Under the pieces are notes generated by a model. The model was not told where the DNA came from. It saw nothing but the letters and a program-made list of their open reading frames with translations, and ran no database searches. Below, piece by piece: positions 1 through 12,602 of a stretch of DNA of 64,000 nt; position 1 is the stretch's first letter; every line of letters begins with the position of its first letter. This stretch comes from Cyclobacterium xiamenense (GTDB lineage Bacteria > Bacteroidota > Bacteroidia > Cytophagales > Cyclobacteriaceae): assembly GCF_009467825.1 (NCBI RefSeq), contig NZ_WIOK01000009.1, positions 1 to 64,000 on the forward strand. Direction: 5' to 3'. The position numbers and the translations under genes were made by a program.

Positions 1-94
1 GGGTACCCTTGGGAAATAAGACAACTAAGGAGGTAATATCAAATAAATGAGTTAACTTAACGACTGATACTTTTGGTCCAACATATGGGGAGTA

Positions 95-964
95 TTATAC
101 AGGGAATCCGTCCTGTACCCTAAAGAACCTCCGGCTATTAACTGAATAACTGATCTCATCATAATTTTCGATCATATCCTTGCTTACCCCGACACATTCG
201 AGTCTTGTTTCAAAGTCCCGGATCAGTTCCGTATCATGGTTGATTAAATCCTTTACTTCATCTATAATGCCTGCAAGAGAATTCTGATTACCTGTGGTTT
301 CTGTTACTGAAATCAATCCAAGAAAAAGGTGATCCCATGCCATGAAATCAAGCTGCTGTTCATTGGAGATGTGTACGGAAGGGCTATTTCCTTTGGATGT
401 TTTAATCTCAACCGCATTTCGGTTGCGAGCAAAATCCTGATTCGCACTCTCAGCACCCCTCCAGGAGTGCATAGCTTCTTTTAGGTTGGAGGTATTCTGC
501 AGAAGTAGCTTTAAAAAGAACAGTTCTCCGAATAATCCCCTTTGCTTTTCAATAGATAATAGTTCTCCTGTTGCCCTTGAAAAGAGCTTTTTCCAATAGT
601 TTACCCTTTGGTTGATTAGGGTGAGCGCCTGTTGTGATTCTGAAACTGTATTGAGTTTTTCAATGATGTCCTCTATGAACATTGTGAAAATATCGGTCAG
701 CTCTTTTTCTAGGAGAATTATCGTGTATTCGGTTTGTGATTGGCTTAAGGGGATTGCCTGTATTTCAACACCCCGAAATTTTCTCAGAAAGTTCTTATGA
801 ACAGGTGCTGCAGAATCGAGTTCCAGTTGAAACATTCTTGCTCCTGTTGCACCGATCAGCCCGATAAAACAATTCAGCTCCGGAATGGAATCAATCCTCT
901 TTTTCACCACATTCTTTCCGGATGTAGATTCCTGATCAGTCCAAATTTGTCGTATATCAGTCAT
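95..964 (-). CDS. DUF4420 PD-(D/E)XK nuclease-like protein of the defence operon
   Basis: Last gene of the five-gene defence operon, 289 residues. I place the start at the ATG at 964 because it overlaps the stop of the upstream Z1 gene by 8 bases, the coupling style of the whole operon. The open frame continues to 1054, but that extension is basic and only reads the Z1 3' end in another frame. A conserved QRGLFGE segment (about residue 141) is followed by QDF (D177) and VEIK (E186, K188), the acidic/E-x-K arrangement of the PD-(D/E)XK nuclease fold. This matches proteins annotated as DUF4420 / PD-(D/E)XK motif protein, which are found beside Z1 ATPases. Likely role: DNA cleavage subunit. Nuclease activity is inferred from motifs only. 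Confidence 0.82.
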   Translation of the reverse strand: MTDIRQIWTDQESTSGKNVVKKRIDSIPELNCFIGLIGATGARMFQLELDSAAPVHKNFLRKFRGVEIQAIPLSQSQTEYTIILLEKELTDIFTMFIEDIIEKLNTVSESQQALTLINQRVNYWKKLFSRATGELLSIEKQRGLFGELFFLKLLLQNTSNLKEAMHSWRGAESANQDFARNRNAVEIKTSKGNSPSVHISNEQQLDFMAWDHLFLGLISVTETTGNQNSLAGIIDEVKDLINHDTELIRDFETRLECVGVSKDMIENYDEISYSVNSRRFFRVQDGFPV

Positions 965-3743
965 CTTCCTCCGTATCATCATCTTCCTGCAGAATTTCTT
1001 CAAATTCTGTCTGCTGAGGACGTGCAGCATATTCAAAAGTTTGTTCACCTTCAAATTCCGGGAAGATCAAACCGAATCCAACAAGAGGAATGTTTTCATC
1101 AAGGTCAGGAGATACCCTGGGATCCAATGGCATAATTACAAGAAGTGGTTTCCCTTCACTGTTTCGCTTATCCTTTATGTCCTGTTCGGTAGGTTCAGAT
1201 TTGAATTCGAGATCGATCATTCTCGCTCGCTTATCCAGTATGGCATTTTTGTTCCCTTTAACACTGAGTTCAGTAAGACCATTTTCAAGATTCCGTGCTG
1301 GCAATCCAGCTTTAATATCTCCATCACTCCAGGTAAACGCGTGTGATTTGACAGGTTTACCACTCAGATCACCTTTCGTAGTGATTGTTTTACCCGTATT
1401 CAGAATAACCGCAACAGACCACTCCTTCAGCTTGCCAATCTGATTTTGCTTTTCTATGTACGCTCTTAAAATATCACCGCGTATGTAACCGGAACGATAG
1501 GAGGCGATAAAATCAGACACAATATTTGCGTATACCTTGTTCCAAAGTAGTGCGTTTACTCCGCGGTTCGATTTCTGCTCTTCGGGTCCGGATAGGCGGC
1601 TCAGGAGATTCTTGAACGCCTGATAATTGGATTTGACTACTGAGGGAGATTTCTCAAATGCATAGGTCTGGATCAGTTTACCCGAGAATCCTACCTGAAT
1701 GCGCTCATGATCCCTCATTCTGGTTACAGATGTAATAAGCAGCATACCCGGATGTGTCCGTACCTTTAACTGAAAATCTTCAGGGCGAAGGTTCTTAGCT
1801 GCCATTTCATCAAAATCTGCCCGCATTTCCTCCGTAGCCATGGTAACATGCCGGTACCAGTTTACCAGTTGTTCAGTAGTATATAACCTGCACAGATCAA
1901 CATAACCGGGTCGGTAACCGAACCATCTACCCATCTGCATCAGGGAATCGTACATGCGTGTTGTTCGGAGATAATAACTGACCGACAAGCCTTCAAGGGT
2001 AATTCCACGGGCAAGCTTATTGCCCCCGACAGCAATTACCGAAAGGCTTGTGCCTGCATCTTCATACTTTTTGTAATTGATTTCTTCAATGTCGTGATAT
2101 TCCAGATTCCGTGTATTCTTGGTTCCATGCACAGCCCGGACTTCTATTTTGGTGACTGTATTGATCAATTCGGTTTTTACCACATCCCAGGAAAATGTTT
2201 TGATTTTCGGGTCGGTATAGGTCAGATTTTCAAGCACTTCTTCCGTTGTTGGAATGAAGTCGTTTTTATATAAGTCTTCCAGTTCTGAAAGAAGGCTTCC
2301 CTGGCCTGATTTGATCTGCCTTTTGTAATCTCTCAGGACTTCATTCACCAGCCAGGCAATACGGTCGATCCAGGCCACCCTGAGGGCAACGTGAATTAAC
2401 ATGGAATTGTGTTTTTTGTCCTGGCCTCTTAAGCGTCTCATGGCACAGGTCAGAATAAAGGCCCGCATTGATTCTTTTAATGATCCGGGAACATCATCCG
2501 GAAGGACATCTCTGTTTTCCCTGTTTATTGTTCGCGGGAACCAGGGTTCCTGATCTTCTGCAGGACGTATTATGTCCAACCCTTCAAACGTTTCTCCGGT
2601 TTTTTCATTCTCAAACCCGAATACTTGGGCTGCACCTATGTAATTGGATGGTGGTGGAATATTGACGATAAAATCCCTGGGAAACAGGTCTTCTCCCACT
2701 TTCAATTTCACATCCTTTACCATTGTCTCGAGTTCTTCGCTCCATTTTGAGGGGATGAACAGGTTTGCGTAAGGTGTCGCGGTATAGCCAATGAAAGTAT
2801 TCTGATTGAACAGGTTCAGCAATGTCCGGATGAGGCGGTTTATCGTCCTTACGTCTATTTCAGTCCCTGAATTGACAGATGCATTGTCCGCTTCATCATC
2901 AATAACCAGCACCGGAACATTGTGTATTTTTCTGTTTCCGGCTGAGTCGTCAACAGCAAATTGGTTTAACCAAAGTATAAGGTTTTCCAGCACACTCTTG
3001 TTCTTTTTTATTACCAGAACCGTAGGGCTGTTTCCTCCAATTGGTACATTCAAACGAGTGGCTATACCTCGGTTAAAATCACCTTTATCATCAGATGAGG
3101 TGTAAGAATATATCTCGGTATCCACTTTGAATTCCCCAACTCCTATCTTATTATTTTTCTTTCGCAGGATAAAATCTGCGCTGTTCCGGCCAATATAGCC
3201 TTCATCAATTCTGACCTGGGTTTGTGAACGAAGTGTGTTGTGTACGCCGGCAATGACAATAATGAGTTTATAACCTGCATCAGTAGCTTTGTTGATCAGG
3301 CCGGTGTAATTGGCTGTTTTACCTGACTGGACATTACCAACAACCATACCCCTGCGATCCCAGTTGCCTGGAGTTTTCGGATTAATACATTTATCGAGAA
3401 TTTTTTTTGTCAAGTCATCCAGGCTATCTACTGGAAAGGAACCATCTTTTGCCTTCAACCAACCTTTATACCTATCCCAAAGCTGCCATGGATAATTGCC
3501 CGGAATATCATGTAACCATGGTTTTACATTCTTATTGACTAATTGAGTTGCTTGCCCTTGAAAGACCTCAAAGTCATATTCTAATTGTTCAATCAGGTCA
3601 TTTAAGTCAACATTAGGATACTGTTGCTTTATTAAAGGATTTTCAGCTACTTCCTTAATATCTTCAGGTACGATATCACGGTCTCTTTTTATATCACCCA
3701 ATAAAATGTGACAGACATTACGAGCGCTTTCTAATTCTTTCAT
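957..3743 (-). CDS. Z1-domain superfamily II helicase-like ATPase
   Basis: 928-residue protein. Residues 136-143 are a Walker A motif (GNVQSGKT), 283-286 are DEAD (Walker B), and TATPYANLF near 321-329 resembles helicase motif III. The C-terminal half carries the Z1 signature: GGNKLARG at 573-580 and QMGRWFGYR at 603-611, which includes the arginine-finger region. The tail is acidic. Z1 proteins are predicted SF2-type ATPases that occur with GHKL ATPases, cytosine methylases and nucleases in restriction-modification loci. The start ATG overlaps the upstream ATPase stop by one base (TAATG). It probably couples ATP hydrolysis to DNA translocation or remodelling for the nuclease encoded next; that role is inferred. 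Confidence 0.9.
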   Translation of the reverse strand: MKELESARNVCHILLGDIKRDRDIVPEDIKEVAENPLIKQQYPNVDLNDLIEQLEYDFEVFQGQATQLVNKNVKPWLHDIPGNYPWQLWDRYKGWLKAKDGSFPVDSLDDLTKKILDKCINPKTPGNWDRRGMVVGNVQSGKTANYTGLINKATDAGYKLIIVIAGVHNTLRSQTQVRIDEGYIGRNSADFILRKKNNKIGVGEFKVDTEIYSYTSSDDKGDFNRGIATRLNVPIGGNSPTVLVIKKNKSVLENLILWLNQFAVDDSAGNRKIHNVPVLVIDDEADNASVNSGTEIDVRTINRLIRTLLNLFNQNTFIGYTATPYANLFIPSKWSEELETMVKDVKLKVGEDLFPRDFIVNIPPPSNYIGAAQVFGFENEKTGETFEGLDIIRPAEDQEPWFPRTINRENRDVLPDDVPGSLKESMRAFILTCAMRRLRGQDKKHNSMLIHVALRVAWIDRIAWLVNEVLRDYKRQIKSGQGSLLSELEDLYKNDFIPTTEEVLENLTYTDPKIKTFSWDVVKTELINTVTKIEVRAVHGTKNTRNLEYHDIEEINYKKYEDAGTSLSVIAVGGNKLARGITLEGLSVSYYLRTTRMYDSLMQMGRWFGYRPGYVDLCRLYTTEQLVNWYRHVTMATEEMRADFDEMAAKNLRPEDFQLKVRTHPGMLLITSVTRMRDHERIQVGFSGKLIQTYAFEKSPSVVKSNYQAFKNLLSRLSGPEEQKSNRGVNALLWNKVYANIVSDFIASYRSGYIRGDILRAYIEKQNQIGKLKEWSVAVILNTGKTITTKGDLSGKPVKSHAFTWSDGDIKAGLPARNLENGLTELSVKGNKNAILDKRARMIDLEFKSEPTEQDIKDKRNSEGKPLLVIMPLDPRVSPDLDENIPLVGFGLIFPEFEGEQTFEYAARPQQTEFEEILQEDDDTEEDD

Positions 3744-5227
3744 TATTCAAAATATTCTATTAGTTGTGTGTACTGGTTAAAAGGTTCTATATTGAAAATC
3801 TGCTTTATGGCCAGTTCACGATCCATTCCACTTGACGTCAATGAACTGTACATCATCCTCGCCAGTTCTATTGTACCGGAATCGGGTTCAGTCTGATTAT
3901 CTCTGAGTTCGTGGCTTTCCGGTTCTTCACTATGGTATTGGATAATAGCCTCTACAGGTGTGGTTTCACCAATCAGTTTAAGCACAGATTTGAATTCAGA
4001 AGCGGATATGGATTCCTTTTCCAGCAAACTTTTTACAACCGCATGCTCTTCATTTATGTAATAGTGTCTTACGTCATCCCGGCTCTTTTTTGCTTTCCAT
4101 ACCGGTTGAAAATCAAAACTTGTGATGGAATCATCCAGCATGATCTGATTACCTCTGAAACGGTGTACAGCACCGGCCGACTTCCGTGTCATTTTTCCGA
4201 GACGAACCAGATCTTTACGGACAGCAATGGAAGGGGTAGCTGTGGCTTTCTTTATGTCTATTTTCCAATCATGATCTAATCTGTTGGGGATATCGACAAG
4301 GATTCTGGCGTTCTTGAAATGTTCATTTTTTGGAAATAATCCAAGCCAGTCTCCGTAAAGCAACAAGCGACTATTGCGGTAAATGTAGAATCCCTGCAGA
4401 CGGTACCATTCATCTGTTTTTGCTTTTTTACGCTCTTCCGGATTCAGTTTGGATATGTGGGGCAGTACATAACATTTTACAATTACCTGGTTATTGTCAA
4501 GATTCTCATGTGCTATCAACTGACCTCCTTCTGATTCTTTCATAAACGGATCCCATGGTTCCAGTTTGTTACCATTCATCCAGATGGTCAGTTTCTTCCT
4601 TTCCATGTAGCGGTGAAAAACCAGACTGAGGTGATCTTCCACTCTTTCAAATTCTTCCAGGAAAACATTCTTTGCGGCCTCATTGTGGACGTTAGCATTG
4701 CCTACCAGTCTGTCGAGTTTTTCCCATAACACGGTTGTACCGTGACTGAGTTTTTCCAGAGGTTCCAGGAACATGTTGTCAGACAAATAATCCAGCAGAT
4801 TCCATTTGCCAGTTTCGTTCACGAAATCCAAGTCCCAATGTCTTTTAATAATGCTGTGATTTTCTTTCCTTGTCAGCACTGTCAGAGCTTTACATTGGGA
4901 AAAGGATGAGGTTTTTAATCCGAGTCCGAACCTGCCCAGGTCATGTTCCTCACGATCATCTTTCGGGTCTTTGCTGCCCGGTGTCATGGCTTCTATCAGA
5001 CCATCTCTATCCATTCCATCACCGTCATCTGTAATTGTCACCCATGACTTTTCACCGTCCCACTCGTACTGTATCCAGACATTATTTGCCCGGGCAGAAA
5101 TGCTGTTGTCGATTATATCGGCAATGGCGGTTTGCAGGTTGTACCCGAATGCCCTGAACGTATTGATCATGGCTCCGGCTTTTGGTGGAGTTTCTTCGGA
5201 TGGTATGTCTCTGAGATGATCGATCAC
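3743..5227 (-). CDS. GHKL ATPase, paraMORC/MORC-like
   Basis: 494-residue protein with an N-terminal GHKL (Hsp90/MutL/histidine kinase) ATP-binding domain: N-box IIDNSIS around residues 38-44, G1 box DDGDGM at 67-72, and G2 box GRFGLGLKTSSF at 98-109. The rest fits the S5-like transducer region of the family, which prokaryotic MORC/paraMORC proteins use to make an ATP-gated clamp on DNA. Translation starts at a GTG (5227-5225) that overlaps the methylase stop by four bases (GTGA). Neighbours are a cytosine methylase, Vsr, Z1 ATPase and DUF4420 nuclease, the association described for prokaryotic MORC relatives in restriction-modification systems. Likely a DNA-clamping or superstructure-manipulating subunit of the defence complex. 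Confidence 0.87.
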   Translation of the reverse strand: MIDHLRDIPSEETPPKAGAMINTFRAFGYNLQTAIADIIDNSISARANNVWIQYEWDGEKSWVTITDDGDGMDRDGLIEAMTPGSKDPKDDREEHDLGRFGLGLKTSSFSQCKALTVLTRKENHSIIKRHWDLDFVNETGKWNLLDYLSDNMFLEPLEKLSHGTTVLWEKLDRLVGNANVHNEAAKNVFLEEFERVEDHLSLVFHRYMERKKLTIWMNGNKLEPWDPFMKESEGGQLIAHENLDNNQVIVKCYVLPHISKLNPEERKKAKTDEWYRLQGFYIYRNSRLLLYGDWLGLFPKNEHFKNARILVDIPNRLDHDWKIDIKKATATPSIAVRKDLVRLGKMTRKSAGAVHRFRGNQIMLDDSITSFDFQPVWKAKKSRDDVRHYYINEEHAVVKSLLEKESISASEFKSVLKLIGETTPVEAIIQYHSEEPESHELRDNQTEPDSGTIELARMMYSSLTSSGMDRELAIKQIFNIEPFNQYTQLIEYFE

Positions 5228-6813
5228 TTTGAACTACTTGAAATCTTAAATACAATTTCTGCAATCTGTTTTGCCAAATAAGGTGGAACCGCGTTCCCAA
5301 CCTGATGGTATTGCGCAGTGCGAGATCCACAGAATAGGTAGTTATCCGGGAACGTCTGTATTCTCGCAGCCTCTCGCACGGTCAGACTGCGGCACTGATC
5401 CGGGTCGTAGTGGATGAAGTAATGTCCATCCTTGGAGATGTGACTCGTTACAGTGGTGGCCGGCTGATCCGGAACCTGTACCCGGAACCTATCGGCAAAC
5501 TTCCCTGTTTTGGCATTTTCGTGATCTGGTAGTAATGCCTCACTATGGGATTCAAATTCATGCAGTCGGGGAAACCGGGTGTAGGTCTTCGTGAACATGC
5601 TGGAAAACATATACCTTTTCAGGTCCTCCACCAGATGTACGCGCGACTCATGGTTGGCTACTCCTTTTAGATTCGGGTCATGGTACCAATCAAAAAGTGG
5701 ATTGGATTGGGAAGGTGTATTACAGGAAACGAACTCAGAACCTCTTCCATCCGGTGGAACATCAATGCCACTAGCCAAATACTCTCTTGCAAACCCATTC
5801 CAGGAAATAACCTCCGCCTTTAATGAATTGGTTAAACGCTCCCATGCATCATCTGAATCGGTTTCCTTTCTATAAAACCGCTTTTTCTTTCCAAGTACCA
5901 TTTCACTGCGAATAAAGGACCGGTTGATTCCGCTGCGAATTTTTGGCAAATCGCCGATGACGTCTGAAAGTGTAACGAGATTTTCTGACTTTTCGAGAGT
6001 TTTCGGTGGCTCTGATACGTCCTGACGTATACCAAGCAAGATTACTCGATGCCGATTCTGCGGAACGCCATAATTCTCCGCTTTTATCAAAAAATCGGAA
6101 TGATACTCATAATATGGGTTTCCCTTTCCATCAGTTTGACCACTTTTCGTCAGGGAAAAAATTTTATATTTAGGGGCTTTTCTATTCTTAAAAATAATCC
6201 CTGGATTTCTAAGGTCTCGGAGGATCTTGTCAAAAATTACCTCTCCGTTCAGTTTAGAGGATAAAATACCTCTGACATTTTCCATAACAAATACCGCCGG
6301 ATGATGGTCCGCTATGATTCGCAAATATTCCTTGTATAAATGAACACGATGGTCTTTTTCATCCAGATTTTCCTTCCATTGCCGCCTGGACCTTCCCACG
6401 ACAGAATATGCCTGACAGGGAGGACCTCCTATAAGCACCCAGTTTCTTTCTCCAGCCAGTGCTTTGGCAATCCTTTGATTAACTAATTCAGGCGGAAAAT
6501 CCGGCGATCCCAATGTACACCTCCATGCGATATCTTTAGCTTTTTCGTATTCCCGGGGATACCTTTCAAACAATTTCTGCTTTAATAAATCTCTTTTTGC
6601 GAGATTTGATTCCTCATACATCTCGTAGTAAGCTCCCGGCAATGCATGTTTTTCAAATTGATGAACAAAGCTTCTCAGTTCAAGAGTCTGGTGAGCTGCG
6701 ATATTGTTTTCAATTGATAATCTGATATCGAAGGCCTTTCCCTGATTGACTGCCGAGAACCCCTCCCCAAGACCCCCTGGGCCCGCAAATAGGTCAATTA
6801 CTGGAATCGCCAT
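5224..6813 (-). CDS. dcm: DNA (cytosine-5-)-methyltransferase
   Basis: 529-residue C5-cytosine methyltransferase with the family motifs in order: motif I FAGPGG (residues 9-14, SAM binding), motif IV PPCQ with catalytic Cys133, motif VI ENV (178-180), motif VIII QNRHR (252-256), a central target-recognition region, motif IX (LTVREAARIQTFP) and motif X (GNAVPP near 509). It overlaps the vsr gene by 20 bases at its start and the GHKL ATPase by 4 bases at its end. It should methylate host DNA at the recognition site of the operon's restriction module. The recognition sequence cannot be read from the protein. Slightly longer than E. coli Dcm, with an extended region before motif IV. Confidence 0.93.
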   Translation of the reverse strand: MAIPVIDLFAGPGGLGEGFSAVNQGKAFDIRLSIENNIAAHQTLELRSFVHQFEKHALPGAYYEMYEESNLAKRDLLKQKLFERYPREYEKAKDIAWRCTLGSPDFPPELVNQRIAKALAGERNWVLIGGPPCQAYSVVGRSRRQWKENLDEKDHRVHLYKEYLRIIADHHPAVFVMENVRGILSSKLNGEVIFDKILRDLRNPGIIFKNRKAPKYKIFSLTKSGQTDGKGNPYYEYHSDFLIKAENYGVPQNRHRVILLGIRQDVSEPPKTLEKSENLVTLSDVIGDLPKIRSGINRSFIRSEMVLGKKKRFYRKETDSDDAWERLTNSLKAEVISWNGFAREYLASGIDVPPDGRGSEFVSCNTPSQSNPLFDWYHDPNLKGVANHESRVHLVEDLKRYMFSSMFTKTYTRFPRLHEFESHSEALLPDHENAKTGKFADRFRVQVPDQPATTVTSHISKDGHYFIHYDPDQCRSLTVREAARIQTFPDNYLFCGSRTAQYHQVGNAVPPYLAKQIAEIVFKISSSSK

Positions 6814-7225
6814 TAGTAATTCTTTTTATAAGCCTCATTAATGTTTGTTGTCGATTGCCGGATTTCAGTTCGCACTCAAATACAGTGAGAACATTCCATC
6901 CTATATCTATTAGTTTATTTTCGTTTTCCCTATCCTTTCGTTTATTGGTAGTAATCTTATCCAGCCACCATTGCGTTCGTGTTTTTGGAACAACATAATA
7001 GTTACATCCTTCATGCCCATGCCAGAAACAACCGTGCACTTGAACTATCGTGTTGTATTTTGGCAAAACAATATCTGGCTTTCCAGGAAGCTTTTTATCA
7101 TGCAGTTTGTACCGAAACCCACGAGCATGGAGGAATTTCCGCACCAGCATTTCCGGTTTGGTATCCTTTCCTTTGATCCGGCTCATGTTATAGCTCCTTA
7201 CCTCCGGTTCGTGAACGTCTGCCAT
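6794..7225 (-). CDS. vsr: Very short patch repair (Vsr) endonuclease
   Basis: 143-residue Vsr-family protein, first gene of the operon. Residue numbering follows E. coli Vsr closely: Met14, Glu25, catalytic Asp51, and the HGCFWHGH segment giving Phe67, Trp68, His69 and His71. Cys66, Cys74 and Cys118 are near the positions of the zinc site. In the known family, Vsr nicks next to T:G mismatches produced by deamination of 5-methylcytosine, and the adjacent cytosine methylase fits that. In compact defence operons Vsr homologues may instead act as the restriction nuclease; sequence alone does not decide. It overlaps the methylase start by 20 bases, so translation is probably coupled. Confidence 0.93.
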   Translation of the reverse strand: MADVHEPEVRSYNMSRIKGKDTKPEMLVRKFLHARGFRYKLHDKKLPGKPDIVLPKYNTIVQVHGCFWHGHEGCNYYVVPKTRTQWWLDKITTNKRKDRENENKLIDIGWNVLTVFECELKSGNRQQTLMRLIKRITNGDSSN

Positions 7226-7527
7226 ACTGATATCCCTTTTTTTGTTCTCCTGTTTGGGTTGTGTTTTTTCGAGACTCTTTCTATTTGGTTGGTTTCCTGG
7301 ACGATATTTCCAGACTGTATCCGTTGAGATGGGGTTTTCTTTTTCTTTGACCCGAAAAAACGAATAAAACTTGATGCTATTCCCCTAACAAGATAGGGGA
7401 AAATTTTAGAATGAGGAAGTAGCGGGGCAGGAAAAATTACCCGAAGCCATGCCAGCAAACCCTGGCGTTTCCGGCAACAAACCAGTAAAGAAAATGCGAA
7501 AACCTAAGGGTAGCTTAGGGGACTTTG
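7226..7527. other. Gene-free leader upstream of vsr with three short hairpins
   Basis: About 300 bases between vsr and the repeat region with no convincing gene. Three perfect short inverted repeats lie close together: 7382-7399 (CCCCTA/TAGGGG, 6-nt loop), 7451-7466 (GCCAG/CTGGC) and 7503-7519 (CCTAAG/CTTAGG, 5-nt loop). None is followed by a clear T-run on the minus strand. The stretch must hold the promoter of the defence operon, but I cannot identify it. Confidence 0.4.
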
Positions 7528-7767
7528 CTAACCCTTTAAGAAACTAATCGTACGGTTTTCCAAGGATTTAACCGAAGAAACTGTACCATCACCCAAACCG
7601 ACTATTCGATAGGGCTCCATTTTTCGCCCCAGAGCTACACCGATTAGTTCCGGATTCCTTTTCCTAAACCAAGCCACCTGGCCTCTATCTATCTGTGTTA
7701 GCTGTGGTCCCTCTTTTTTCACCACAGATTCGCGCGGATTTACACAGATTTTTTTTCGTTTCCTCAA
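7528..7767 (-). CDS. Small unidentified ORF, possibly a gene remnant
   Basis: 79-residue open frame that I do not recognise. The first 28 or so residues are encoded by the CACAGATT repeat element and are probably not ancestral. The remainder, with segments such as WFRKRNPELIGVALGR and PYRIVGLGDGTVSS, reads like ordinary protein but matches no family I know. It lies between the defence operon and the repeat array. It may be the 3' end of a gene whose 5' part was replaced by repeats, or no gene at all. Confidence 0.22.
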   Translation of the reverse strand: MRKRKKICVNPRESVVKKEGPQLTQIDRGQVAWFRKRNPELIGVALGRKMEPYRIVGLGDGTVSSVKSLENRTISFLKG

Positions 7768-8827
7768 AGAGACCAGCCCATCCCTAACTTATCTGTGCTA
7801 ATCTGTGTTATCCCTGGTGCAACACTTTTTTCACCACAGATTCGCACGGATTTCCACAGATTTTCTTTGGGCTTTTTTTACCTAACCTTCCTATCCCTAT
7901 TTATCTGTGCTAATCTGTGTTATCTGTGGTGCAACACCTTTTTCACCACAGATTCGCGCGGATTTGCACAGATTTTTTGGTACATGGTTTACATGATTAT
8001 TCTTACGATTCCTTTTTTCATATCCTGTACATTAAAATTGAGCAACAACGCCAATTTCAAACCTGATAGTTTGAGATACGTCATCACTTGAGATTTATGA
8101 ATAGGTGCGAGTTCCTCAACCGACTTCAATTCAATGATAACCAGACCATTTACCAGTAGGTCTATTCGGTAACCTGCGTCGAGTTGAATCCCATCATAAC
8201 TTACCGGCAGGGGCTTTTGGCGTTCAACTGTTAACCCTAGCTTGAGTAATTCGTATTCCAAACAAATCTCATAGGTAGATTCCAGTAACCCTGGTCCCAA
8301 CTCGGAATGAACGTTATACACGCAGCCAATGATTTTGTAGGTTAAATCATTTAATTCCATAGGCATGAATCAAATAAATCTTAGGTGTATAGCTTTTTCA
8401 CCACAGATTCGCACGGATTTCCGTGGATTTTTTGGTTATTTAAGCTAAACCAAATTATCCCTAATCTATCTGTGCTAATCTGTGTTATCTGTGGTGAAAC
8501 ACCTTTTTCACCACAGATTCGCGCGGATTTACACAGATTTTCTTTGGGCTTTTTCTACCTTCCTATCCCTATTTATCTGTGCTAATCTGTGTTATCCGTG
8601 GTGAAACACCTTTTTCACCACAGATTCGCACGGATTTCCACAGATTTCTTTTCGTTTCCTCAAAGAGACTATCCCATCCCAAATTAATCTGTGCCTATCT
8701 GTGTTATCCGTGGTGAAACACCTTTTTCACCACAGATTCGCACGGATTTCCACAGATTTTTTTCGTTTCTTCAAGGGAGACTATCCCATCCCTAATTAAT
8801 CTGTGCTAATCTGTGTTATCTGTGGTG
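7690..8827. repeat. Array of ~100-bp palindromic CACAGATT repeats
   Basis: Full units lie at 7720-7819, 7832-7931, 8399-8496, 8509-8603, 8616-8715 and 8728-8827, with a tail fragment near 7690-7708 and one unit starting at 7944 that is interrupted by a gene. Each unit begins CACCACAGAT and ends ATCTGTGGTG, so its ends are inverted repeats. The left arm holds three copies of CACAGAT or CACGGAT at 10-base steps; the right arm holds three inverted copies at 9-10-base steps. Unit cores vary more than the ends. Linkers are about 12 bases (AAACACCTTTTT or close). This is not a CRISPR array: units are long, palindromic and lack unique spacers. The last unit ends 8 bases from the stop of the next gene. 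Confidence 0.9.
7989..8366 (-). CDS. GxxExxY family PD-(D/E)XK nuclease-like protein
   Basis: 125-residue protein with the family signature GLLESTY (residues 26-32) and a C-terminal D69 ... IIELK (E79, K81) arrangement typical of the PD-(D/E)XK fold. Members are annotated as GxxExxY proteins and have no settled function. The gene sits inside one unit of the surrounding palindromic repeat array: a left repeat arm at 7944-7978 lies just past its 3' end, and only a GGTG remnant of a right end (8384-8387) lies beyond its 5' end. A second ATG at 8360 is an alternative start. Its position resembles that of REP-associated transposases, suggesting it acts on these repeats; that is inference. Confidence 0.88.
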   Translation of the reverse strand: MPMELNDLTYKIIGCVYNVHSELGPGLLESTYEICLEYELLKLGLTVERQKPLPVSYDGIQLDAGYRIDLLVNGLVIIELKSVEELAPIHKSQVMTYLKLSGLKLALLLNFNVQDMKKGIVRIIM

Positions 8828-8834
8828 CATAAAA

Positions 8835-10676
8835 TTATTCGGTAGCTCCTCGATACGCCTCGGTACCGCCCACTACCGGCAGCCTCAGCGAACTGGCATC
8901 CAGATCCACCGTCAGCTCCGTGCCAGGCTCGGGCCAAAGTGTAAATTCCTTGTCGCTGGAAAAAACCAACAAGCCGATCTGCTGCCCCTTCGGAATGACC
9001 TGATCGTCGGGCTGCAAGGCAAAGCTAACCGTGTAAAACCGGCCCGGCTTCAAGGGCTCGCTTTCTGTCAGGGAGCGGTGATTCTGCGGGTCCGCCCATC
9101 CACGGGTGATGATATTGTCCGTGATCGTTGCATTTTTCCGCTCGTTCCAGGGCAGGGAGACCAACCAAACCGAAAGGTTGGCAGCGGGCTTGCTGGAGGC
9201 CAGGCGAATGGTCACCTCCGGCAGACCGGACAGGTGCAGGTCTTCCTTCAGTTCGGGACTCACAAACACTAGCCGATGATCGGTCAACTCCGCCCGCGCC
9301 AGCGAAGCCCCATCAAACGAAAAATTATCGATCAGAGTCTCCTTGCCTTGCCGGGCGGGTTTCTCCAGCTGCAGGCTACCAATGGCCGGGGCTGCTCCTT
9401 CCAGAAAGAGCTCCACGGGCTCGGATTGGGGATGGGGATAGGCTTCGTAGGGCGTGGGGTTGTCCTGACCATCGCCCTCTCGCACGATCCACACCCGGGG
9501 ATCGTCTTCCACGCCGTTTTCCTGACCGTGCAGGTAGCGGGTAAACCAGCGATTCATCATCCGCATGGGCGGTGGACCTCCGTGCCCGTCCTGATGGTAA
9601 TACAACTGCACCGGAAGTCCCATGTCCCGGGCTTTTTTGTAGATCCGGTAGCTGTGTTCGGGCATCACGTTCCAGTCATTGAACCCATGGGCCATCAGCA
9701 AGGCGGCTTTCATGGGCTCCATTTGGTTCAGGTAGTCCCTGCCCGCCCAGAAATCGTTGTAATCCCCGGTGACCCGGTCCATCCCGGCTTTCATTTCGGT
9801 ATCCCGGATGCGGGCGTTGTTTCCGGCCCGTTTGGCAGGATCCCCGCTATGGATAAAATCGTAGAGCACGTCAATGTCTTCGCCCAGGTAGCCACCCGGC
9901 GAGCGCACCAATCCATAGGAACGGTAATAATGGTAATAGGAGGTATTGGGGGCGATGGGGATGATGGCCTCCAATCCCTCCACCCCGGTGGTAGCCGCAG
10001 CCAAGGGCAGGGTGCCGTTATAGGAAGTTCCGGTCATGCCTACCTTGCCCGTGGACCAGTAGGCCTCCACCAATTCCCCGCCCTGTGGTTGGGTATAGCC
10101 TCTGGCCCTCCCGCAGAGCCAGTCGATCACGGCTTTAGGGGCCAAGGATTCGTTTTTGCCGCCCACGGTGGGAGCGCCCTGGGAAAGGCCCGTGCCGGGG
10201 GAAGAAGAGTGCACCACGATATAGCCCCGCGGTACCCAGGTGTGGATGTGGGAATCGGAGATAAAGGGGCGGTTATTGCGCGGAGTCACTTCCGGTGAAA
10301 CCCGGCTCGCTGGCGGAGATCCCAATTCATGGCGCACGTCCCAAAACAAGCCATCCACATCGGGTGCGACCCCGGCGAAATAGGGGCTACTGACGTAAAT
10401 CACGGGAAGTTTCAAGCCCTGGTATTCGGTCTGATAGGGACGCGTAACGGAAACGTGCATGCGATCGGGCTGCCCGTCTGCGTCGGAATCGAATTCGGTT
10501 TCTACCCAGAGATCATGCCGTACCCAACGGGCGGGGTCCTTGAAGGCCGCTACTTCCTGGGCTTCCCCATCCAGAAAATGGGGTTGGGCCTCCGATTGGG
10601 CGGCAAGGGGTGGTACAAAAATTCCGAATGCCAGCCAGAGGCAAAGGATCAATAGATGGGTTGTTTGCTTCTTCAT
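8835..10676 (-). CDS. CocE/NonD family hydrolase (Xaa-Pro dipeptidyl-peptidase S15-like)
   Basis: 613 residues with an N-terminal signal peptide (about 1-26, ending PPLAAQ). The alpha/beta-hydrolase domain has the nucleophile in GTSYNG (Ser218), the acid in HGFNDWN (Asp334) and the base in DGHGG (His365). The C-terminal half is the jelly-roll domain of the X-Pro dipeptidyl-peptidase S15/CocE family. Probably an exported peptidase or esterase that cleaves Xaa-Pro peptides or acyl esters; the exact substrate is not predictable. Its stop codon is only 8 bases from the repeat array. Read as a single-gene unit; the next gene is divergent. Confidence 0.85.
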   Translation of the reverse strand: MKKQTTHLLILCLWLAFGIFVPPLAAQSEAQPHFLDGEAQEVAAFKDPARWVRHDLWVETEFDSDADGQPDRMHVSVTRPYQTEYQGLKLPVIYVSSPYFAGVAPDVDGLFWDVRHELGSPPASRVSPEVTPRNNRPFISDSHIHTWVPRGYIVVHSSSPGTGLSQGAPTVGGKNESLAPKAVIDWLCGRARGYTQPQGGELVEAYWSTGKVGMTGTSYNGTLPLAAATTGVEGLEAIIPIAPNTSYYHYYRSYGLVRSPGGYLGEDIDVLYDFIHSGDPAKRAGNNARIRDTEMKAGMDRVTGDYNDFWAGRDYLNQMEPMKAALLMAHGFNDWNVMPEHSYRIYKKARDMGLPVQLYYHQDGHGGPPPMRMMNRWFTRYLHGQENGVEDDPRVWIVREGDGQDNPTPYEAYPHPQSEPVELFLEGAAPAIGSLQLEKPARQGKETLIDNFSFDGASLARAELTDHRLVFVSPELKEDLHLSGLPEVTIRLASSKPAANLSVWLVSLPWNERKNATITDNIITRGWADPQNHRSLTESEPLKPGRFYTVSFALQPDDQVIPKGQQIGLLVFSSDKEFTLWPEPGTELTVDLDASSLRLPVVGGTEAYRGATE

Positions 10677-10999
10677 GGCTTAAAAATAGCGATTTTTTGA
10701 AAGGTGCCGAAATGCATGGCCAACGCGCTTCCTGCCGTTTGTGGAAAAGATGCCCTGCGTAAAGCCCATTAACCAGTCAAATAGTTGTATCGGAGACACC
10801 TTTTTGCGACCGACTGATGGCCGGGCGAAGCTTCAAGACGAATTTGCCATCTTACTTCTCGGAACCCATACTACCGGCTACAGAATTTTTTTTCCTCCCA
10901 TTAGTGGTTCATAGGCGACGCTGAATGGGTTTTTTAAAAATTTTTAAACTATTCTGATTATCAGTTGTTTACTTGCCATACCAAAACCAACAATCAACT
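10677..10999. other. Divergent intergenic region, no gene
   Basis: 323 bases between the minus-strand CocE-like gene and the plus-strand fasciclin gene. It must contain both promoters. The part near 10930-10960 is AT-rich, but I see no motif convincing enough to name and no RNA gene. Confidence 0.5.
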
Positions 11000-11548
11000 A
11001 TGAAACGAATGATGTATGCATCCGCATTACCAGCACTTGCTATCTTGCTATGGGTGACGGCTTGCGGGAGTCCCCAAAAAGAAACAACGGAAGAAGAAAC
11101 GATGATGGAGGTGGAAGAAGCCGCACCTGAAGAAGCGGCACCATCCATTGTCGATATAGCGGTCGGTTCGCCGGACCACGGAACGCTGGTCACGGCATTA
11201 ACTACCGCCGAACTGGTAGAAACCCTAAGCGGTGACGGTCCATTCACCGTGTTTGCACCAACCGATGCGGCCTTTGCTGCCCTGCCGGAAGGAACAGTGG
11301 CCTCCTTGCTGGAGCCGGAAAACAAGGAACAACTAACCGGGATTTTGACCTACCACGTGGTCGCTGGAAATGTTTTAGCCGCCGATCTGTCCGACGGACA
11401 GGTAGTGGAAACACTAAATGGGAAAACCCTATTGGTATCGATCGCGGATGGCACAGTCAAAATCAATGGGGCCACGGTGACGGCCGCAGACTTGTCCGGA
11501 AGCAATGGCGTGATCCACGTGATCGATGGCGTACTAATACCGGAATAA
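11000..11548 (+). CDS. Fasciclin-domain lipoprotein
   Basis: 182 residues from the ATG at 11000. The open frame begins at 10973, but the signal peptide starts at this ATG (MKRMMYASALPALAILLWVTACG) and is followed by the lipobox Cys, so the protein should be lipidated and exported. A Glu/Ala-rich linker (about residues 27-50) leads into one fasciclin (FAS1) domain: the H1-type segment TLVTALTTAELVETL, FTVFAPTDAAFAAL, YHVVAGNV and the terminal NGVIHVIDGVLIP are all present. FAS1 domains mediate adhesion or ligand binding at the cell surface. Monocistronic, with a terminator at 11606. Confidence 0.92.
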   Translation: MKRMMYASALPALAILLWVTACGSPQKETTEEETMMEVEEAAPEEAAPSIVDIAVGSPDHGTLVTALTTAELVETLSGDGPFTVFAPTDAAFAALPEGTVASLLEPENKEQLTGILTYHVVAGNVLAADLSDGQVVETLNGKTLLVSIADGTVKINGATVTAADLSGSNGVIHVIDGVLIPE

Positions 11549-11605
11549 GTTTAATGAAAAACGGATGCGTTAAACGAATCCGTGACCACTATACCTAACC
11601 TGCGC

Positions 11606-11640
11606 AAGGCTGTCCATTTCGATGAGACGGCCTTTTTTTT
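11606..11640 (+). terminator. Intrinsic terminator after the fasciclin gene
   Basis: Stem 11606-11614 pairs with 11626-11634 (nine pairs including one G-T), 11-base loop, followed by a run of eight T on the plus strand. Confidence 0.8.
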
Positions 11641-11795
11641 TCCACCTGCAATACCGGACCGAGATGCTCCCGGTTCGCCGTAGAAATCACCGGTACCCGC
11701 CTAGTAGCGGATACGAATCTTGGCGAAAAAATCCTGTTCTGCATCCCAAAAGATGCATTAATTTCGTATGTTGGTAGCTGTAAATCCTTTCCCGC

Positions 11796-12602
11796 ATGAA
11801 CCGCAGATTCTTTCTTCACAAACTCAGTCTGGCCGGCGCACCGCTGCTGGCGTTGCCTTTGCTTTCGTTTGGAAATCGGGTAACTCCGAAGGTCGGCCGA
11901 TTGAAATTCATTACCGCTTCCGACGGGCATTGGGGGCAACCGGGAACGGACTACGAAACTTCTCACCGGGACCTGATCGAGGCCATCCACCGAGAAAACG
12001 GAGTGGATTTCGTGCTGTTCAACGGAGATTTGATCCACGACGATCCGAAGTTGCTTCCCGAGGTAAAAAGCGTTTACGATCAGCTACAGGTTCCCTACTA
12101 CCTGACACGAGGCAACCACGACCGGGTTCCCGCGGCGGATTTTTTGCGCGTCATGGGCCAACCGACCAACCATGCGTTTCTAGCCAAGGACGATGTGGGT
12201 GGGATTATCCTGGATTGTTCCAACGAAAAAGGGGAGTACCGCTGCGTAGACCTGGAATTGGCGAAAAACCTGCTCGACAACTACGCCAGCCTTTCGCATG
12301 TATTCGTCTTCGTGCACATCTCTCAAAACGATTGGACCCGGCACGGAATCGACTGCAAGCCCCTATTGGAACTGCTGGCCTCCTATCCGGCCGTGCGCTC
12401 TACCTTTCATGGCCACGACCACGATGTAGACGGGCAGATGATTTACCGCGACAAGCCCTTTCTCTGGTCCGGACACTTCGGTGGGTCCTGGGGCAATCCC
12501 TTCCCTTCCTATCGTGTTTGCGAAGTAGGCGAAGACGGCAAGGCAAGCACTTACCTCAAAACAGTGAAGGATGGAACGATCCTGAATGCACACAGCCTGT
12601 AA
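11796..12602 (+). CDS. Exported calcineurin-like metallophosphoesterase
   Basis: 268 residues. The N-terminus (MNRRFFLHKL then a hydrophobic Leu/Ala run to about residue 27) is a signal sequence, possibly Tat-like. All five metal-binding blocks of the calcineurin-like phosphoesterase superfamily are visible: ASDGHWG (D-x-H), NGDLIHDD, RGNHDR, FVHIS and GHDHD. It should hydrolyse a phosphomonoester or phosphodiester outside the cytoplasm; the substrate is unknown. It stands alone on the plus strand, convergent with the hydrolase operon that follows. Confidence 0.85.
   Translation: MNRRFFLHKLSLAGAPLLALPLLSFGNRVTPKVGRLKFITASDGHWGQPGTDYETSHRDLIEAIHRENGVDFVLFNGDLIHDDPKLLPEVKSVYDQLQVPYYLTRGNHDRVPAADFLRVMGQPTNHAFLAKDDVGGIILDCSNEKGEYRCVDLELAKNLLDNYASLSHVFVFVHISQNDWTRHGIDCKPLLELLASYPAVRSTFHGHDHDVDGQMIYRDKPFLWSGHFGGSWGNPFPSYRVCEVGEDGKASTYLKTVKDGTILNAHSL

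Follow-up and report, generated by a model that had tools for sequence, protein, structure and literature searches.

A six-gene restriction-type defense operon of the MORC/Z1 kind, resembling the MZA system and carrying a DUF4420 nuclease gene broken by an IS3-family insertion element, is the probable explanation of the genes at the start of a 64,000-nucleotide stretch of the Cyclobacterium xiamenense genome (the window; contig NZ_WIOK01000009.1, here C97, read from its base 1). The analysis covered the first 12 kb of the window. Five of the genes lie there, and the sixth, encoding an AIPR protein, was found on another contig, C28; the likely order of the full operon is vsr, C5-methylase, MORC ATPase, Z1 ATPase, DUF4420 nuclease, AIPR. 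Judging by its sequence, the operon is of a kind already described, and this copy is itself ordinary and damaged. What is new is the comparative result: in relatives, the four genes from the MORC ATPase to AIPR are inherited as one block, whereas the methylase is weakly linked to it and seems to have been exchanged largely independently.

Gene content and interruption of the operon

A scan for open reading frames (ORFs) found five overlapping minus-strand genes at positions 95–7225 of the window, bearing out the same-strand arrangement with overlaps of 1–20 bases described in the initial annotation. The features are as follows.

1–99, no strand assigned: end of an IS3-family insertion element, recognized from shared element ends at contig borders; the remainder is lost in the assembly gap
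95–964, minus strand: DUF4420 PD-(D/E)XK nuclease, MzaD homolog, truncated (Pfam PF14390, 2.5e-57; MzaD, 1.7e-15)
957–3743, minus strand: Z1-domain SF2 ATPase, MzaC homolog, 928 amino acids (aa) (Pfam PF10593, 2e-79; MzaC, 2.1e-162)
3743–5227, minus strand: prokaryotic MORC GHKL ATPase, MzaB homolog, 494 aa (HATPase_c_3, 1.1e-32; MzaB, 6.2e-96)
5224–6813, minus strand: C5-cytosine DNA methyltransferase of the long class, about 525 aa (PF00145 DNA_methylase, 3e-49; TIGR00675, above cut-off)
6794–7225, minus strand: Vsr very-short-patch repair endonuclease, first gene of the operon (PF03852, 2.3e-32; TIGR00632, 136 bits, above cut-off)

The Vsr and methylase genes overlap by 20 nt, the methylase and GHKL genes by 4 nt, the GHKL and Z1 genes by 1 nt, and the Z1 and DUF4420 genes by 8 nt, the last value being measured from the homology-supported DUF4420 ATG at 964. 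A 319-aa ORF from TTG 1054 was ruled out as the DUF4420 start because relatives align from that ATG. All five family assignments made earlier were upheld by Pfam, and PADLOC, run on the window proteins, returned MzaB, MzaC, MzaD, and Vsr, with the methylase among DrmMII and type II methylases. The Z1 protein contains GNVQSGKT, DDEAD, TATP, and DSLMQMGRWFG, and the methylase contains GPPCQAY, MENVRG, QNRHR, and GNAVP. The GHKL gene has a GTG start and encodes all four ATP-binding motifs (DIIDN, DDGDGM, GRFGLGLKT, and GTTVLW), whose positions are mostly invariant or nearly so in an alignment of 19 sequences. Catalytic motifs had been reported as intact in every member; they are indeed present, but the DUF4420 gene is cut by the IS3-family element.

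MORC proteins are defined by the motif GhXhhpXXRhl in the S5 domain, which paraMORC1–5 lack (Iyer et al. 2008, PMC2292703). The GHKL protein of the window carries the motif as GFYIYRNSRLL, by pattern match to its sequence, so the paraMORC label that it had received is wrong by this definition. The motif was present in 45/45 GHKL proteins with a Z1 partner (this one and 44 relatives); among the 335 remaining ORFs of at least 300 aa in the same loci, 2 had it. Compared with solved structures, the GHKL family profile matched MORC3 (2.6e-11), MORC4, and MORC2 best, with MutL and Hsp90 ranked lower, among the best 60 of 122 matches. The subfamily name apart, the defense operon of methylase, GHKL ATPase, Z1 SF2 ATPase, and PD-(D/E)XK nuclease proposed in the initial annotation is supported by the PADLOC and NCBIfam matches to MzaB–MzaE and by the conserved gene set.

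The gene set had also been called complete, which it is not. The AIPR family PF10592 has a single match in the genome, a 791-aa gene on the minus strand of C28 with a full-length open frame and a start 216 nt from the contig end; its product matched PADLOC MzaE at 1.8e-87. Because the window begins at the edge of C97, the cluster had been seen cut, with AIPR out of view. A structure model of AIPR (pTM 0.39) matched no solved fold at E ≤ 0.001, the best being FokI at 0.49, and a sequence search of solved structures gave no match at E ≤ 1. HEPN RNase activity has been proposed for AIPR (PMC3506569) but found no support in a 10-row alignment, where the only invariant His (H329) had no invariant Arg 5–7 residues earlier. 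Another conceivable role would be that of a nucleotide switch resembling ParB/DndB (PMC12704722). AIPR is a regular fourth member of the GHKL-Z1-DUF4420-AIPR block.

The element's terminal repeat, TATAATACTCCCC, occupies positions 99–87 in the minus-strand reading, the flanks diverge at this repeat, and a 3-bp target duplication lies at 100–102. The DUF4420 stop codon at 95–97 is IS sequence, and the native part of the gene, 100–964, encodes 288 residues. Its last 39 residues are found on C28 (about C28:68297–68416), where their stop overlaps the AIPR start. Placed separately on 18 homologs, the N- and C-terminal pieces fell in adjacent alignment columns (361/362), and the C-terminal piece shares 74% identity with the 39 residues that end the Algoriphagus iocasae protein (locus L055). 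The C28 end and the C97 start both lie inside the same repeated element. The join of the two contigs is supported by the matching 3-bp duplications, the adjacent alignment columns, and a contig from the same genus bearing both flanks. By the sequence on both sides, the insertion removes the last 39 residues of DUF4420 and separates the first five genes from AIPR.

The element interrupts the assembly of this genome at twelve contig ends. Exact element ends were found at seven left borders (C28, C12, C52, C47, C42, C19, and C68) and five right borders (C97, C73, C39, C37, and C54), each at a contig end except that of C12, which is 305 nt away. By its 3-bp flank, each of the five right ends pairs with exactly one of the seven left ends (C97-C28, CAG; C73-C42, TAC; C39-C12, GGG; C37-C68, AAT; C54-C19, GTT), and the left ends C52 and C47 have no partner among the five. 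The duplications thereby suggest five contig pairings. A diverged copy on C33 has two overlapping ORFs, the larger encoding an IS3 transposase (NCBIfam NF033516, 215 bits; cut-off 160).

Relatives of the locus and exchange of the methylase

A total of 53 loci were gathered through the GHKL protein, so all partner counts are conditional on it; L056, L109, and L110 duplicate L045, L050, and L052, and their removal left 50. One genome search matched 17 other genomes, of which 11 were used and 6 weak ones (E above 1e-7) were left out; partial GHKL matches at contig ends in G736 and G780 were excluded. A Z1 gene stood next to the GHKL gene in 44/50 loci, and among these DUF4420 was present in 40/44, AIPR in 40/44, and both in 37/44, so that the genes are conserved together. 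A same-strand upstream C5 methylase was found in 35/44 loci and Vsr in 16/44. Of the nine without such a methylase, three have it downstream and three on the opposite strand, one has none in the stretch, and two (L058 and L059) have little upstream sequence. AIPR is missing from L047, L106, and L121, and L059 is a 3.2-kb contig. L098 has no DUF4420, and in L039 and L040 an AAA-type ATPase fills its slot. Among 395 genomes sampled from the phylum, 15 contained the GHKL family (E ≤ 1e-60), and among 395 sampled from the class, 22 did; both counts include the C. xiamenense genome.

Pairwise identities were compared over full stretches in the 31 loci with all five proteins, including the operon studied here. 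Those of GHKL, Z1, DUF4420, and AIPR correlated with one another at rho 0.74–0.95, and those of the methylase with the block at rho 0.19–0.23, with 0–7 of 500 permutations as high. In the subset of 14 loci with Vsr as well, the methylase-block values were −0.05 to 0.01 and the methylase-Vsr value was 0.22; without L118, the methylase values were 0.08–0.17. In this analysis and the long-class one below, some proteins entered as their first matched stretch (the 41-aa methylase stretch of L118, for example, Z1 of L053, L054, L061, and L119, and AIPR of L060).

Most methylases fall into two size classes of about 410 aa (short) and about 525 aa (long). On a FastTree phylogeny of concatenated GHKL, Z1, and AIPR proteins with 31 tips (16 long and 15 short), at least 9 changes of class are required; shuffled labels gave 10.6 changes on average, and 226 of 1,000 shuffles were as low as 9. 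The Z1 proteins of L055 and L045 are 88% identical, whereas their methylases, long and short, respectively, are 40% identical. Within the long class (15 loci), the methylase-DUF4420 correlation was about 0.6, alike for the presumed target region and the rest, so the linkage of methylase and block is loose rather than absent. Within bounds that we chose for the presumed target regions, mean identity was 49% in the short class versus 58% elsewhere in the protein, and 36% in the long class, falling to 21% against the methylase of the window. That DUF4420 and the methylase form a matched specificity pair was considered and rejected because DUF4420 tracks the block; the correlation of about 0.6 in the long class argues against full uncoupling.

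The chromosomal site of the operon can be followed in congeners. In G006, a genome of the same genus, a single contig carries both the gene that adjoins the operon in the window (8835–10676; presumably a hydrolase) and the gene found beyond AIPR on C28, with 13.4 kb separating them. In this interval are a Vsr-like ORF (87% over residues 1–102 of 143) and a fragment of AIPR (72% over residues 273–315), and between these two lie ORFs of 126 and 1,046 aa. G001 has this arrangement inverted, with a 420-aa PDDEXK_4 gene in addition and the AIPR and Vsr remnants kept; there the 126-aa protein is NUDIX and the 1,046-aa protein a PLD-helicase, for which PADLOC gave a type IV methyl-directed enzyme as the best match. 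G003, G005, and G011 have matches to only the first 37–39 Vsr residues at the same site. Given these remnants and the differing gene sets, this is a site of defense turnover in the genus. G004 has the complete six-gene set beside the same hydrolase, with Vsr 86% and the methylase 84–85% identical to those of the window, whereas GHKL, Z1, DUF4420, and AIPR are 31–41% identical; one of the two, the block or the methylase pair, was exchanged at this position.

At the same site, G008 carries a MrcB_N/AAA_5 gene and a DUF2357/PDDEXK_7 gene (L154:13136–17008), a pair that we take to be McrBC-like. A small PDDEXK_3 gene (Pfam) lies upstream of the operon at window positions 7989–8366; since copies 79–93% identical occupy the same place in G006, G001, and G008, it is part of the chromosomal site and not of the defense system. 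Rfam gave no match in window positions 1–12000 at gathering thresholds, and a sigma-70 scan of positions 6900–8900 found no minus-strand site.

Some relatives contain further genes. The ATPase in the DUF4420 position of L039 (3559–5481) and L040 (14418–16193) is AAA/SMC-like, with weak AriA/LmuB/GajA-type matches. L055 (4559–9465) and L057 (3990–8856) have a protein of 1,220–1,225 aa with a 400–409-aa partner between the methylase and MORC; scanned in L055, the large protein matched the PADLOC CARF-STK-AAA model at 1,592 bits and the partner no Pfam or PADLOC family. In L050, a KaiC-like ATPase is among the extra genes between or before the methylase and MORC. L041 (5848–9151) and L054 (4143–7647) have proteins of 728–735 aa with two GHKL domains, each with a partner outside Pfam families, near Vsr and the methylase; these pairs resemble the HEF_HK/Response_reg_2 pairs of PMC8011034.

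Proposed mode of action and alternatives

In the mechanism that we propose, the methylase would place a 5-methylcytosine mark on host DNA, and Vsr would repair T:G mismatches arising from the deaminated base. The MORC ATPase could be a clamp, driven by ATP, by which DNA is held or looped, a looping role having been proposed for MORC (PMC2292703). The Z1 ATPase may move along or remodel DNA, as the Z1 N-proteins of CglI and NgoAVII couple to a nuclease, DUF4420 would cut DNA devoid of the methyl mark, and AIPR would complete the block. In C. xiamenense itself, where the nuclease is truncated and the IS stands between AIPR and the other genes, restriction has probably been lost or weakened; the methylase and Vsr can presumably still work, which would leave the cell with a mark but no weapon.

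Several points weigh against a six-gene MZA-like restriction operon broken in this way. The C97-C28 join is inferred, with no read across it. The structure model of DUF4420 (mean pLDDT 86.5) matched no solved fold at E ≤ 0.001, its top matches being kinases, so the nuclease fold is assigned from Pfam and motifs; sequence searches of solved structures with DUF4420 and Z1 gave only weak unrelated matches (E 0.27 or worse). With its E-D-ExK residues still present, the truncated DUF4420 might remain active, and insertion sequences are able to provide promoters. The weak link between methylase and block is awkward for a matched restriction-modification model. Matches to the MZA families are significant but far below the NCBIfam equivalog cut-offs (MzaB 396 of 850 bits, MzaC 634 of 1,500, MzaD 91 of 420, and MzaE 379 of 1,050), so "MZA" denotes a family resemblance. 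Of the 6 GHKL proteins that lack a Z1 partner, 5 carry the MORC motif as well, so that it is by itself no marker of this operon type.

The weak coupling either puts simple matched restriction-modification in question or implies that the methylases are isospecific. A matched system with one fixed site, in which both methylase classes recognize the same sequence and swaps keep the protection, is a tentative possibility. The sites reported for Z1-associated methylases are alike, GCSGC for CglI/NgoAVII (PMC4267653) and GCWGC in Prevotella intermedia (PMC5608340), and short-class methylases are fairly well conserved in their presumed target region; the identities in the long class are nevertheless low for a shared site. 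It is rather doubtful that the methylase and Vsr are not cognate to a self-contained block that senses a cue other than methylation, such as the topology, ends, or replication of phage DNA. The low methylase-block correlations in both sets of loci, the class changes nearly as frequent as under shuffling, the nine loci without a same-strand upstream methylase, the Thalassospira marina locus with its methylase after AIPR, and the methylase and Vsr shared with G004 despite a divergent block would all accord with it. They have to be set against the upstream same-strand methylase in most loci, the gene overlaps in this operon, weak correlations that still exceed nearly all permutations, and the tighter methylase-DUF4420 correlation in the long class. 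A further proposal, also somewhat improbable, is that the block has no sequence specificity of its own and that the adjacent C5 methylase supplies target choice or self-marking. If this were true, methylases of unrelated class and site could be swapped, even in place at a single chromosomal site, without retuning the nuclease, giving a modular "bring your own methylase" defense run by bacterial MORC ATPases. The natural methylase swap between L055 and L045 and the block swap between C. xiamenense and G004 are ready-made comparison pairs.

That the operon still functions in C. xiamenense, with AIPR transcribed from the IS or an internal promoter, is unlikely. The equivalents of E147, D177, E186, and K188 in DUF4420 precede the break, and the AIPR frame is open; yet the lost 39 residues cover the Tyr305 position, invariant in 12 sequences, and, in the L055 model, the final strand and helices. 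Moreover, the DUF4420 and AIPR genes overlap by 4 nt in L050, L051, L052, L055, L057, and L061, which suggests coupled translation in close relatives.

Comparison with known systems

The MZA system, MzaABCDE, was reported by Gao et al. in 2020, as cited in PMC9523054. The operon shares with it homologs of MzaB, MzaC, MzaD, and MzaE in the same order, AIPR on C28 being the MzaE homolog. Miller, Stern, and Burstein (2022, PMC9523054) describe mzaA as a sigma factor. No MzaA was found at the locus, and the sole match in the genome (C29:43858–44616, model positions 412–665) reads as an ordinary sigma factor, since the model also matches in 10 of 14 control genomes. In a locus on a Thalassospira marina plasmid, where only mzaE is annotated under an mza name, the order is sigma factor, ATPase, Z1, PD-(D/E)XK, MzaE, followed by a restriction endonuclease and a cytosine methylase. 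In this locus, the methylase is thus downstream, after AIPR, while in C. xiamenense the methylase and Vsr are upstream.

The best PADLOC match of the methylase is DrmMII (2.8e-88), a protein of class 2 DISARM. Of the DISARM proteins DrmA, DrmB, and DrmC, none is among the PADLOC families listed for the six proteins of the operon, the list for the methylase comprising the best 25 of 56. When DNA carries unmethylated sites, the Z1 ATPases of CglI and NgoAVII hydrolyze ATP on it, working together with a nuclease that is a separate protein (PMC4267653). Those systems share with the operon a C5 methylase and a Z1 SF2 ATPase that couples its hydrolysis to such a nuclease; they have three genes with a PLD-B3 nuclease, whereas here the neighbors of Z1 are MORC and DUF4420, with AIPR in addition. 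In P. intermedia, the m5C methylase of a five-gene segment at a Z1/AIPR locus methylates GCWGC (PMC5608340).

The system had been put forward as little described. No experimental study of restriction by this block was found among the records listed in searches of the open-license literature, subscription journals being mostly outside the scope of the search, and the division of labor among its proteins is uncharacterized in the literature used, as is the action of MORC in bacterial defense. Bacterial MORCs are the proposed source of the eukaryotic MORC chromatin ATPases (PMC2292703). The kind of operon, on the other hand, is already described in two papers. Iyer et al. (2008, PMC2292703) described MORC operons with an SF2 helicase and a restriction endonuclease (RE)-fold protein, often with Dcm and Vsr, and listed AIPR as common in them (Figure 2 legend). 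Their third operon type shares with this one the MORC motif, a Z1 protein with DThhQXuRhFG, and an RE-fold protein with E-D-ExK, and their MORC neighborhoods share the Dcm-type methylase, Vsr, and AIPR. Among the relatives and the operon itself, DThhQXuRhFG (T or S allowed) was found in 43/45 Z1 proteins and E-D-[EQ]xK in 41/41 DUF4420 proteins. No difference in kind from this type was found; the present copy is split by the IS3-family element. Miller et al. (2022, PMC9523054) regarded Z1, PD-(D/E)XK, and C5 methylase genes with AIPR and MORC as a putative defense system, and the gene content of their type II matches, with a Z1 protein of 925 aa there and 928 aa here. The operon of C. xiamenense fits the third MORC type of Iyer et al., is a divergent relative of MZA, and, by gene content, matches type II of Miller et al.

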